From Alviniconcha marisindica (lineage: Eukaryota > Mollusca > Gastropoda > Provannidae): a DNA stretch of 64,000 nucleotides. This document shows, piece by piece, positions 5,060 to 59,886 of this stretch. A program made the position numbers and the translations under genes. The notes beneath the pieces were generated by a model that was given only the letters and a program-made list of their open reading frames with translations, ran no database searches and had not been told where the DNA came from. The stretch is from contig JABMCL010003271.1 in assembly GCA_018857735.1 (NCBI GenBank), positions 665,001 through 729,000 on the forward strand, read 5' to 3'. Each line of letters starts with the position of its first letter. The stretch's first letter is position 1.

Positions 5060-5138
5060 AGTCAAGGCCAACCGAGGGTGGCGTATGCGCTGGGTTGTGT
5101 TCAATGGGGTGGACTTGCGTTACTATAACAACAACAGA
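5060..5138 (+). CDS. ARAP: ARAP exon 1 of window: PH1, first strands
   Basis: The acceptor is CTGTTTCAG and the donor GTAAGA. The first base completes a codon from an upstream exon; then 26 codons read VKANRGWRMRWVVF and later LRYYNNNR. This is the basic beta1-beta3 segment of a PH domain with the conserved R-W-V/C pattern that contacts phosphoinositides. The start of PH1 is on an exon outside the window. The last 24 bases, including the donor, are duplicated 36 bp downstream. Confidence 0.9.
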
Positions 5139-5156
5139 GTAAGATTTTTTTTTTTT

Positions 5157-5180
5157 TACTATGACAACAACAGAGTAAGA
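5157..5180 (+). repeat. ARAP: Tandem copy of exon 1 3' edge with donor
   Basis: TACTATGACAACAACAGA followed by GTAAGA repeats the end of exon 1 (TACTATAACAACAACAGA / GTAAGA) after a 13-T run. The second donor is exactly 36 bp after the first and the intervening 12 codons are open, so it could be used without frame change. Confidence 0.85.
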
Positions 5181-5329
5181 AAGAAAAAATGTTACAGTGT
5201 TAGGTAATGTTTTTAGTCCAGTTATCTTGAAAACCTAATTTTATAAACCCCCTGCTTCCTTCCTTGATGAAGTTATGGTATATATATTGGAATCCTTCGT
5301 GTTGTTTTGTCTCACCCTGATGGCTGATA

Positions 5330-5715
5330 TATATATAACCATACTGGTTGACTGGGCATAATTTCAACACCAAGTTACTTACTTAAGTGTTGTTTTGTTG
5401 GGCAGTATGCTCAGCCTTTTGTAACCAAACTTGGTATTGTGGTACATCATCATCACCATAGTGCCGGGCGAAAAAATATGCTTGCTATTTTCAAGGTCAA
5501 GGCCACAGTAAGGGCTCATATAATCAAAATATGACTGTTTGTACTATGCCTTCTTACCTGCTGATCCTTAATTGCAACCAAACTTATTTGTTCAAGGTTG
5601 AGGTTGCAGCAAAGGTTTGAAACTTCATTGAATCTTTGTCAGTCCCATCTGTGCTGCTGATCACTTTGCAACCAGACACTCAGGTGTGGTGATGTGCTAA
5701 CCACCACACCAGGTG
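5330..5715. repeat. Dispersed repeat family E (AAGGTCAAGG type)
   Basis: It contains TTTTGTAACCAAACTTGGTA, a TTTTCAAGGTCAAGGCCAC block and ATAATCAAAATATGACTGTT. The same blocks in the same order recur at 49130-49560 and, partly, at 6890-7025. This kind of AAGGTCAAGGTCAC family is widespread in marine invertebrate genomes; its class is unclear. Confidence 0.65.
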
Positions 5716-6163
5716 CAAACAAAGTGGGCATACACTAGCTGACAGACAACAAACTGCGTTTCTTTCTTTCTTTGTTTATGATTTTTGTTTTATCAGATCA
5801 TTTGGGGCTGCATTTGAGACTTATGTTTTACATGTTCATGCACATGCAAACAGAGGGACCAAAACAGAGAGAGAGAGAGGGAGAGAGAGAGAGTATTTCT
5901 ATATTTACCCTCTGTCTTTTTAAGTTTGTCGATGACTTGAGAGAATTTCACTTTGGGCATTAGATGTGTTGTACTTCTCTTAAACTTGAGAAATAAATGC
6001 ACTTAAAAAAATGTTCCTGAGCCATGGTCAAGTTAAAGCATGTTGAAGATCAACATTGTAGTGAAGCCAGAGCTTACTTTGGATTGCTGGCTGAAAGCAG
6101 CACTGATTTCGATTCAGCTTTCTCATGGATGAAAAACAACAACAAAAACAACAACGACAAAAC

Positions 6164-6272
6164 ACGCACACACACACACACACACCAAACAACAACAACA
6201 ACAACACACATGCACGCACGCACGCACGCACGGCACGCGTGCGCGTACACACACACACACACACACACAGTC
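6164..6272. repeat. (CA)n / (CACG)n / (CAA)n simple repeat cluster
   Basis: Alternating (AC)n, (AAC)n and (GCAC)n blocks. A (GA)n run precedes it at 5865-5893. The 170-codon open frames across it are low-complexity artefacts. Confidence 0.9.
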
Positions 6273-6662
6273 TCTCTCTTTCTCAATCTAACTTGCTGTC
6301 TAAAAACTCTTCTCAAGCAACTGAACAAGAACATAGCAGTGAATAAAATGACACAGACAACCAAGAATGCATCAGTCAGTGTATTTTCCACTTGGACTAA
6401 CAATCAGAAAATCAGGACAATCTTGGCCTCTCTGGCAGTGAGTGCATTTCTCAGTTTGACTGACATTCAGGCAATCATGGAAATCATTGGCTCATTTTCA
6501 GTCTTTTATCAAGAACAACTAAAACTTTCTCGGCATTTCCATTAATGCCAGATTAAACCAAGGATTTACAGCAAATGCCACAAGTGTTAGGCATTCTCTG
6601 AGAATGCCTGTTTTCCCATTTTGACTGGAACTGGCCTAACCCTATTTGCTTATGTGTTACAG

Positions 6663-6807
6663 AGCCAGATTTCGAAGAAGATCATCCCGTTGTCAGTGAT
6701 GAAAGAAGTGATAAGCGACATCAAGGAAGGCGACACCAATCGTTTCAAGTTCCGCCTGGTGACAACACTTCGGGACAGGACATTCCACTTTGCAACTGAT
6801 TCCCGAG
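6663..6807 (+). CDS. ARAP: ARAP exon 2: PH1, middle strands
   Basis: The acceptor is GTGTTACAG and the donor GTGAGT; 48 codons plus one base. The translation begins SQISKKIIPLSVMKEV and contains FKFRLVTTLRDRTFHFATD, the typical beta5-beta6 hairpin of a PH domain. It joins exon 1 in phase 0 and exon 3 in phase 1. Confidence 0.9.
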
Positions 6808-6889
6808 GTGAGTGGCCACTGTACCATCATGTCTGGCATGCTTCTTAGAAGTTCTGGAGTGCTGAGGAACTTGAGACTTGCAAACATGA

Positions 6890-7025
6890 AAAGACTGGAT
6901 TGATGTATTCAAGGTCATGGTTGCAGCATTGGTTATAATTTTCAGTTGATGTTTGTCTGGACAATTTCTTCTGAACTAGTGAATCTTTTGTAACCAAACT
7001 TGGCATGGTGATGTCTATTATGAGC
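6890..7025. repeat. Dispersed repeat family E, partial
   Basis: CTTTTGTAACCAAACTTGGC and TTCAAGGTCATGGTTGCAG match the longer copies at 5330 and 49130 in altered order. It is followed by a poly-C plus CA tract at 7027-7069. Confidence 0.5.
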
Positions 7026-7153
7026 CAGATTTGACCCCCCCCCCCCCCCCCCACACACACACACACAATATGTTGTTGTCATGGTTGACTTGGCATAGCC
7101 CTTGAAAACCTTTCTCTTTTTAAACCCCTTTTCTTCAGTCTCATTGCCCTGAG

Positions 7154-58277: not shown

Positions 58278-58360
58278 GCCAAGAGTCAGCTGTGTTCATG
58301 GAAAGTAGAGGAGCTGACCATCTACCTGGGCATCGACTCCAAGCGATCCCCTCCAACCAG
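58278..58360 (+). CDS. ARAP: ARAP exon 36: PH5 middle
   Basis: The acceptor is GCTCCGCCAG and the donor GTGTGT. It reads AKSQLCSWKVEELTIYLGID and SKRSPPT. W-x-[VL]-E-[ED]-x-x-x-Y-[LI]-G is a signature of the last ARAP PH domain. A decayed copy of its 3' half lies 76 bp downstream. Confidence 0.92.
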
Positions 58361-58388
58361 GTGTGTGCCTTATTCAGACATTTGATGT

Positions 58389-58450
58389 ACTGACCCTCTA
58401 CCTGGGTAGTGACCCTGAGAGATTCCCGCCAAACATGCATGTGTCTCATT
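58389..58450 (+). pseudogene. ARAP: Decayed tandem copy of exon 36 3' half
   Basis: CTGACCCTCTACCTGGGTAG and GATTCCCGCCAAAC match exon 36 (CTGACCATCTACCTGGGCAT, GATCCCCTCCAACC) at an offset of 76 bp. The donor position has lost GT. The copy contains an in-frame TAG. Confidence 0.85.
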
Positions 58451-58454
58451 TATC

Positions 58455-58670
58455 TGTGAACCAGTCTGGCCTAGTGGTAAGGTGTTAGGCTGGTAAGCAG
58501 AAGGACCTCAGTTCGATTCAGCTTCAGCTCTTTTCTCTCTTCAAAAGTTGTGGTCTGTAGAAACTGTAGAAACTGACTCTGTTCCTCACAATTAATGAAA
58601 CATTAAAATGGCTCTCATCGTTGCCTATCTTAATGCAGGAGTCATTCTGGTGGTGACAACCTCTAATTCC
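58455..58670 (+). mobile_element. SINE B, second copy
   Basis: GGCCTAGTGGTAAGGTGTTA and CAGTTCGATTC resemble Pol III A and B boxes. The body has CACAATTAATGAAACATTAA and AATGCAGGAGTCATTCTGGT, matching 22022-22300; the tail is missing. Confidence 0.78.
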
Positions 58671-58952
58671 ATGTCAAAGAGATTGTCTTAACCTCTTTGA
58701 GGTTGAATTAGTCCTAGGGCAAAGTGATTCAGTCAACCCAACTGTAGTCCATGTACTGGTGAGTTTGGTGGCTAAAATCTAGCCAGGAGATTTTACTGCC
58801 ATGATCAAAACAGCTTCTAATGATGAGGACTTCTATTGAGCTTCCTCTATTCTTCCTGGTTGTAACGATCTTGACCTTGTTTCAAAGTCACAGAGATACT
58901 GGAAAGGTAAAGATGAAAAAACATATTTTCTTGTCCTGATTCAGTCGAGTAC

Positions 58953-59235
58953 CTGTGTGTGTGTGTGTGTGTGTGTGTGTGTGTGTGTGTGTGTGTGTGT
59001 GTGTGTGTGTGTGTGTGTGTGTGTGTGTGTGTGTGTGCGTGCATGTGTGTGTGTGTGATTACTTGTTATAATTGAGATGGTGTGTGTGTGTGTGCGTGTG
59101 TGTGTGTGTGTGTGTGTGTGTGTGTGTGTGTGTGTGTGTGTGTGTGTGTGAGATTACTTGTAATAATTGAGATGGTGTGTGTGTGTGATTACTTGTTATA
59201 ATTGAGATGGTGTGTGCGTGTGTGTGTGTGTGCAG
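58953..59235. repeat. Long (TG)n with small tandem units
   Basis: Pure (TG)n at 58954-59036 and 59102-59150, separated by three copies of GATTACTTGTTATAATTGAG plus ATGG. It lies 130 bp upstream of exon 37. Confidence 0.95.
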
Positions 59236-59364
59236 GCATGCATGCCTGCACACACATGCTTGCGTGCATGCATGTTTGAGTGCGTCACAGCATGTACTAA
59301 TACAAACGTTTTCCTTCAGAGTTGATTTCAGTGCACACTGCTTGTGTGTATGTGTGTGTTTCAG

Positions 59365-59491
59365 CTTTGGTTTTACCTTTTTGGTGAACAACAGAGAAGA
59401 GAAATCGAAGTCCAGCAGCTTTGGTTACTGTGTGGCCCTGCCCTCGGAAGAGGAGCTGTACAGATGGGTGTCTGCACTACTTGTGGCACAG
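59365..59491 (+). CDS. ARAP: ARAP exon 37: PH5 C-terminal half
   Basis: The acceptor is GTGTGTTTCAG and the donor GTACCA. It reads SFGFTFLVNNREEKSKSSSF, then GYCVALPSEEELYRWVSALL and VAQ. The E-E-E-L-Y-R-W-V helix closes PH5. Confidence 0.95.
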
Positions 59492-59853
59492 GTACCACAT
59501 CTTTTGTTGCTGTTGTTGTTGTTTGTTTTTTCATTCTCTTTTCTCTTTTTTTTTTTGGGGGGGGGGGGGATATACAAAGGATTGTGTTCCTGGCTTCCCC
59601 TCATCTGCTTTGGTTATTTTTCAGATGGGGCGGGGGGGGCAGTCGATTCATTTTCAGGGGTGGGCAGTGCAAGGACTTTTTTTCTAGCTTTTTCCCCCCT
59701 TTGGCTTTGGTTGTCTCCCCCAAAGCAATGTGATGTCATGGGGATGTTATGGAGAGAGAGGGTCTGCTGTACCTTATGACATCACAAGCGCAAGCCTGGC
59801 TCGTGTCAGGTTTCAATGCCGTGTTTTAACTGGTTTCCTTGTCCTGTTTCCAG
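59492..59853 (+). other. ARAP: Intron 37
   Basis: It holds T-rich and poly-G patches (59550-59570, 59626-59640). No element seen. Confidence 0.45.
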
Positions 59854-59886
59854 AAACCAGAGGGCCTGATGGTGTGGAACAGATGA
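59854..59886 (+). CDS. ARAP: ARAP exon 38: C-terminal tail and stop
   Basis: The acceptor is TGTTTCCAG. It reads KPEGLMVWNR and ends at TGA (59884-59886). The short K-P-E-G-x-[ML]-x tail directly after the PH5 helix fits ARAP C-termini. Confidence 0.92.
   Translation, partial: KPEGLMVWNR

Follow-up and report, generated by a model that had tools for sequence, protein, structure and literature searches.

Duplications of exon borders within adjoining introns have been described in amphioxus, where the globin genes carry minisatellite-like duplications of both exon borders that were named mirages, with earlier cases at Adh3 and other loci, and where Adh3 data and reverse transcription-polymerase chain reaction on globins suggest regular splicing despite the mirages (PMC3087553); a further report adds PGBD5 to the amphioxus mirage loci and mentions troponin C (PMC3902484). 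In potato, a tandem duplication across an intron-exon boundary of an RdRp gene created a new intron (PMC4974935), and in Drosophila introns have been gained through duplicated exonic proto-splice sites (PMC2891723). Internal tandem repeats alter gene structure among recent human paralogs, half of them lying in coding sequence (PMC2812944), and short direct repeats near splice sites have been surveyed (PMC11782384). Here we analyze a stretch of 64,000 nucleotides from the gastropod Alviniconcha marisindica (assembly GCA_018857735.1, contig JABMCL010003271.1, positions 665,001 to 729,000 of the forward strand), hereafter the window, in which nine exons of an ARAP-type gene (exons 1, 4, 11, 17, 25, 28, 29, 33 and 36, with 4 and 36 the weakest) have part of their sequence repeated in the intron beside them. 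A preliminary description of the gene had put forward ten such exons and had offered the pattern as one lacking a named gene-wide description; the amphioxus reports show that the name mirages was already in place.

The gene, with ArfGAP, RhoGAP and PH domains, was read from the sequence as 38 predicted exons with GT/AG borders, numbered as in the preliminary description, which when joined encode 1031 residues in a single open frame up to a stop codon.

5060-59886, forward strand: ARAP-type gene, 38 predicted exons, the gene's first exons not included (open frame, Pfam domains, ARAP relatives)

All splice sites discussed are predictions from genomic sequence, and the analysis covers a single sequence and a single gene. 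In Pfam, RhoGAP, ArfGAP and two stretches of PH exceed the cutoff, and RA_2 falls slightly under its own. The nearest proteins are ARAP-like and come from caenogastropod snails (74% identity to two isoforms, probably from Babylonia, and 72% to Nucella lapillus), the further ARAP-like matches being other gastropod proteins; judged by protein identity, the source is therefore likely a caenogastropod. Because these relatives reach further towards the N-terminus, exon 1 of the window is not the first exon of the gene.

The copies are located as follows, with the evidence for each, explained below, in brackets.

5157-5180, forward strand: one copy of the end of exon 1 (5060-5138) with its GTAAGA (exon-only and swap tests)
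8294-8992, forward strand: array with a unit of about 136 bp, upstream of exon 4 (8993-9046) (junction swap test)
23348-24546, forward strand: array of 16 copies of a 76-bp unit with the end of exon 11 (23165-23347) and its donor (swap and shuffle tests)
30701-30741, forward strand: one copy of the end of exon 17 (30523-30586), 35 exonic bases at 85% identity (alignment, swap test)
45333-47114, forward strand: array of about 25-27 copies of a 59-bp unit derived from the end of exon 25 (45189-45279) (swap and shuffle tests)
48229-48450, forward strand: array of 7 copies of a 31-bp unit from the inner sequence of exon 28 (48512-48617) (exon-only and shuffle tests)
49646-50227, forward strand: array in which the start of exon 29 (50228-50318) recurs with its acceptor in 7-9 copies (swap and shuffle tests)
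55005-55070, forward strand: one copy of the start of exon 33 (55143-55251) with its acceptor, 97% identity (alignment, swap test)
58389-58450, forward strand: one diverged copy of the end of exon 36 (58278-58360) (exon-only score 37; duplication cluster 58314-58450)

Exons 1, 17, 33 and 36 thus have one copy each, and arrays stand at exons 4, 11, 25, 28 and 29. Copies lie downstream, on the donor side, at exons 1, 11, 17, 25 and 36 and upstream, on the acceptor side, at exons 4, 28, 29 and 33, and the repeat spans the junction at exons 1, 4, 11, 17, 25, 29 and 33. The range of copy number, from one to about 25-27, is close to the one to about 29 given in the preliminary description, and the presence of both single copies and long arrays is consistent with its proposal that a duplicate is seeded first and expands later.

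The attribution of these copies to their own exons rests on three comparisons. In the exon-only test, the exonic bases alone were compared with the flanks of the same exon, for a total of 76 comparisons that include the 1-kb stretches 5′ of exon 1 and 3′ of exon 38. Scores of at least 32 were obtained in eight of these (exons 1, 11, 17, 25, 28, 29, 33 and 36), as against 1 of 1406 comparisons with non-adjacent introns and 0 of 76 with the antisense of the own flank (Fisher P 3e-10). In the junction sweep, the exon end at each of 74 junctions was swapped for the ends of the 37 other exons. Seven junctions beat all their swaps by at least 4 (exons 1, 4, 11, 17, 25, 29 and 33), the next best doing so by 2; the cut of 4 was set after this gap was seen. 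These two comparisons bear out the earlier claim that the likeness exceeds chance similarity among repeats, and no passing junction among the 74 lay beyond the exons listed in the preliminary description.

The third comparison, of array units with shuffled flanking exons, had been proposed in the preliminary description. Each minisatellite unit was set against its two flanking exons and against 400 dinucleotide shuffles of each. From 109 Tandem Repeats Finder rows came 53 non-overlapping loci, and removal of 10 of low complexity, one of them the array at 36236-38046 with its 35-bp unit, left the 43 analyzed. Several of these belong to a common array, such as five in intron 30, and single-copy cases cannot enter the test. 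Four loci matched an exon better than all 400 shuffles (exons 11, 25, 28 and 29), and for the remaining 39 the shuffle test returned no exon origin.

The individual cases differ in strength. Exon 1 has an exon-only score of 33 against 24 for the best non-adjacent intron and a junction score of 45 against 22 for the best swap. The case of exon 4 is weak: its array holds some 3-4 copies, the units reach at most 15 bases into the exon, the junction scores 53 against 47 for the best swap, and the exon-only test is negative. Exon 36 passes the exon-only test (37 against 22 for the best non-adjacent intron) and fails the swapped-end test, in which 6 of 37 swaps equal it; its copy spans the junction in the pairwise alignment only. 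The tenth exon of the preliminary description, exon 23, is flanked by two arrays.

41603-41987, forward strand: array upstream of exon 23 (41991-42069), stopping at the splice site; exonic origin not supported
42147-43417, forward strand: array downstream of exon 23; exon origin marginal

We rejected the upstream array as junction-derived, for it mostly ends 3 bases before the exon and 37 of 37 swaps do equally well. On the donor side the result is marginal: one setting gives a score of 25 against 22 for the best swap, the sweep 21 against 22. Of the ten exons put forward, nine therefore stand, and exon 23 fails on its acceptor side and is marginal on its donor side.

In our assessment the copies at the nine exons are probably mirage-like tandem duplications, generated by replication slippage or unequal exchange, that happened to include an exon edge. 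Under such a model, duplicated segments would land roughly at random. Those reaching across one junction would survive, the complete exon retaining one full set of signals, and those inside exons would be removed by selection; single duplicates could then expand into arrays by ordinary minisatellite turnover. The background of duplication in the gene is high, with local duplications covering 21730 of 51730 intron bases (42%) and 251 of 3097 exon bases. With 42% of intron bases duplicated, some duplications must reach exon edges. Every duplication locus that touches an exon also enters the intron (6 of 6 in the strict set, 8 of 8 in the relaxed set), and among the local-duplication loci none was found to lie entirely within an exon.

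The number of duplications reaching an exon was compared with a placement model in which arrays were collapsed to one unit, segments were allowed in the intron or across one junction, and sufficiently exonic segments were counted. Under strict detection, 6 of 33 loci touch an exon, where 4.3 are expected if at least 10 exonic bases are required (P 0.26) and 4.0 if at least 15 are (P 0.20); at an assumed segment length of 130 bp, P is 0.31. Relaxed detection yields 8 of 36 to 8 of 38 exon-touching loci, with exon 1 outside these eight, against an expectation of 4.1 to 4.2 (P 0.04 to 0.05). Depending on the assumed segment length and threshold, P spans 0.0004 to 0.31. An excess of about twofold over random placement is possible, and none is required.

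These counts bear directly on the process proposed in the preliminary description, in which splice junctions would themselves be hot spots of tandem duplication, for instance through fork stalling or breaks linked to transcription or splicing, with expansion to follow. The relaxed counts favor it, and more strongly so when segments are assumed to be short (40 to 60 bp), but the strict set shows no clear excess and 39 of the 43 minisatellite loci lack an exon origin. Moreover, exon copies remain recognizable for longer than copies of intron pieces because the exon changes slowly, which biases the counts toward exons and would inflate the relaxed figure. We consider a junction-directed process unlikely. 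What stands of the earlier proposal is the recurrence itself, at several exons, on both sides of junctions and with copies of the exons' own edges; the excess that a directed process would produce depends on the segment length assumed.

Copies that include splice sites are potential decoys, and we scored them with a motif matrix derived from the donors (37) and acceptors (38) of this gene, each time with the tested exon excluded, and applied alike to presumed true sites and decoys. At exon 11, 14 of 53 GT decoys are equal to (5) or better than (9) the presumed true donor; at exon 29, 10 of 55 AG decoys are better than the presumed true acceptor; and at exon 1 one of two decoys equals the presumed true donor. 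By the same matrix, no equal or better decoy occurs at exons 4, 17, 23 (acceptor), 25, 28, 33 and 36. Sites scoring at or above the gene mean are dense in two arrays, with 7.4 donors per kb at exon 11 and 14.4 acceptors per kb at exon 29, compared with 1.2 per kb of each in array-free intron. The presumed true site always lies closer to the opposite border of its exon than any of the copies does. The motif by itself would thus not suffice for correct choice at exons 11 and 29; the simplest further cue would be the exon as a whole, and the spliceosome may pick the right site by exon definition, taking the one closest to the other end of the same exon.

The decoys could alternatively be in use, either as alternative exon ends or as sites that tune splicing. 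The nearest decoys at exon 1 (+36 nt), exon 25 (+69 and +126 nt) and exon 29 (+72 nt) are indeed in frame and introduce no stop, and the acceptor copy at 50141-50227, 5′ of exon 29, outscores the presumed acceptor by motif, is in frame and open, and would add 24 residues. Yet of the motif-matching decoys tested, all 13 at exon 11 and the single one at exon 33 introduce a stop, as do 14 of 16 at exon 25 and 8 of 9 at exon 29. None of 11 aligned relatives shows a repeated insert of this kind at these junctions when inspected by eye, although the relatives may lack the arrays. That some of the copies are in use is improbable on this evidence.

The copies also retain traces of their history. Along the exon 11 array, likeness to the true junction declines: the first copy is 99% identical to it and the 15th 78% (rho -0.91 over the 15 copies that measure at least 50 bp). 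The gradient sits in the intronic half (rho -0.91, n = 16), which in proximal copies is nearly identical to the true junction and in distal ones is not, and the exonic half shows no trend (rho -0.30, P 0.26, n = 16), these P values serving as a guide only, since array copies are not independent. Ordinary array turnover, with recent exchange on the side of the exon, would explain such a polar array. Constraint on the exonic half of distal copies was considered and rejected, for slow change of the exon itself accounts for the data equally well.

At the protein level, the majority of copies and the exon differ at 25 residues. Comparison with the six closest relatives, including Nucella lapillus and Batillaria attramentaria, places the relatives' commonest residue in the copies at 5 of these, in the exon at 16 and in neither at 4. 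The five lie at exons 1, 11, 17, 25 and 36, the last being weak since the relatives vary there. The four kept residues at exons 1, 11, 17 and 25 suggest that the duplications are older than the exon's own substitutions, and copies with kept residues would predate those substitutions under the model of tandem duplication set out above. That the arrays or single duplicates are assembly errors is very improbable: two exon 33 copies are 97% identical, and intron 21, rich in arrays, lacks an intact form of a segment shared by the 11 aligned relatives, but divergence of the copies from the true junction ranges from 1 to 30%, five residues in them preserve the relatives' state, and nine separate events would be required.

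Several observations weigh against a reading based on randomly placed duplications, tolerated through exon definition and older than the exons' substitutions. For the 8 of 36 relaxed loci, P is 0.0004 at an assumed segment length of 40 bp and 0.009 at 60 bp, rising to 0.09 at 106 bp. At exon 28, 0 of 7 copies span the junction, and the array holds inner exon sequence only. The case for exon definition is limited to two to three exons, because decoys at the other exons scored fall below the presumed true site. The exon 29 copy at 50156 is a serious candidate that might be the real exon start. Finally, at 16 of the 25 differing residues it is the copy that changed and the exon that did not.

A broader proposal can be made tentatively, and we hold it to be doubtful: that high-rate duplication keeps copying exon edges into snail introns, which would make introns a fossil record of coding sequence, and that arrays, as they grow, occasionally displace a splice site or engulf an entire exon, for which the 19-residue segment missing between two arrays in intron 21 would be an example.

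Two places in the gene model depart from the relatives. Between exons 21 and 22, in the numbering used here, each of the 11 aligned relatives has some 19 residues for which no intact counterpart was found in the window. The best degenerate match in the gene, at 38063-38115, was rejected as not significant, its score of 24.9 barely exceeding the 23.0 reached by the best of 36 other introns; this stretch lies between two long arrays, and either loss or overrunning of the exon or a fault in the assembly may account for the gap. Directly 5′ of the presumed acceptor of exon 31, four codons at 53625-53636 resemble those of relatives and are preceded by CAT instead of AG, which suggests that the acceptor has shifted by 12 bases in frame, an assembly error being also possible.

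Other repeats occur in the window. At 1444-3840, 5′ of exon 1, lies a long array with an acceptor-like stretch and units of about 82 bp; the window yielded no exon preceding exon 1. A dispersed element occurs three times with 88-90% identity, at 4068-4441, 13610-14048 and 39935-40363, the middle copy inverted, and matching pieces at 22011-22305 and 58447-58658 (81-93% identity) are probably copies of a short interspersed element. ARAGORN detected no tRNA genes.

Among the papers listed by searches of open-licence literature, no title or abstract reports copies of this kind in a mollusc. New here are the accumulation of many cases in a single gene of a mollusc, decoy motifs at exons 11 and 29 that equal or surpass the presumed true sites, the polar array of exon 11 and the kept residues. 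Exons 11 and 29 constitute natural tests of splice-site choice, in which position relative to the whole exon would have to discriminate, and copies that hold residues lost from the exon could be used to date duplications and to polarize substitutions.

Compared with described systems, the ARAP gene shares with intron gain in potato and Drosophila (PMC4974935, PMC2891723) a duplication that includes an exon edge and turns exonic sequence intronic, but there a new intron position arises, whereas in this gene the observed effect is lengthening of existing introns. As in the human report (PMC2812944), minisatellites at exon-intron boundaries alter intron or exon length; that report concerns recent human paralogs, with half of the repeats coding. 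The amphioxus mirages (PMC3087553, PMC3902484) differ in belonging to a cephalochordate and not to a mollusc. The ARAP gene, for its part, has nine affected exons in one gene, known from one genomic sequence, an array at exon 28 without the junction, and a majority of arrays that are not exon-derived. Mirages are further marked by length that is unstable between alleles or cells, and the ARAP gene is represented here by one sequence. Several features are shared. The intron next to an exon holds copies of that exon's end or start with the splice signals; duplication affects 5′ as well as 3′ boundaries (here donors of exons 1, 11, 17, 25 and 36 and acceptors of exons 4, 29 and 33); single duplicates occur together with minisatellite-like arrays (here at exons 4, 11, 25, 29 and 28); and unit lengths overlap, from 10-160 bp in amphioxus mirages to 31-136 bp in the arrays of this gene. 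If the pattern held genome-wide, mirages would be a by-product of large introns and active tandem duplication, not a cephalochordate oddity.

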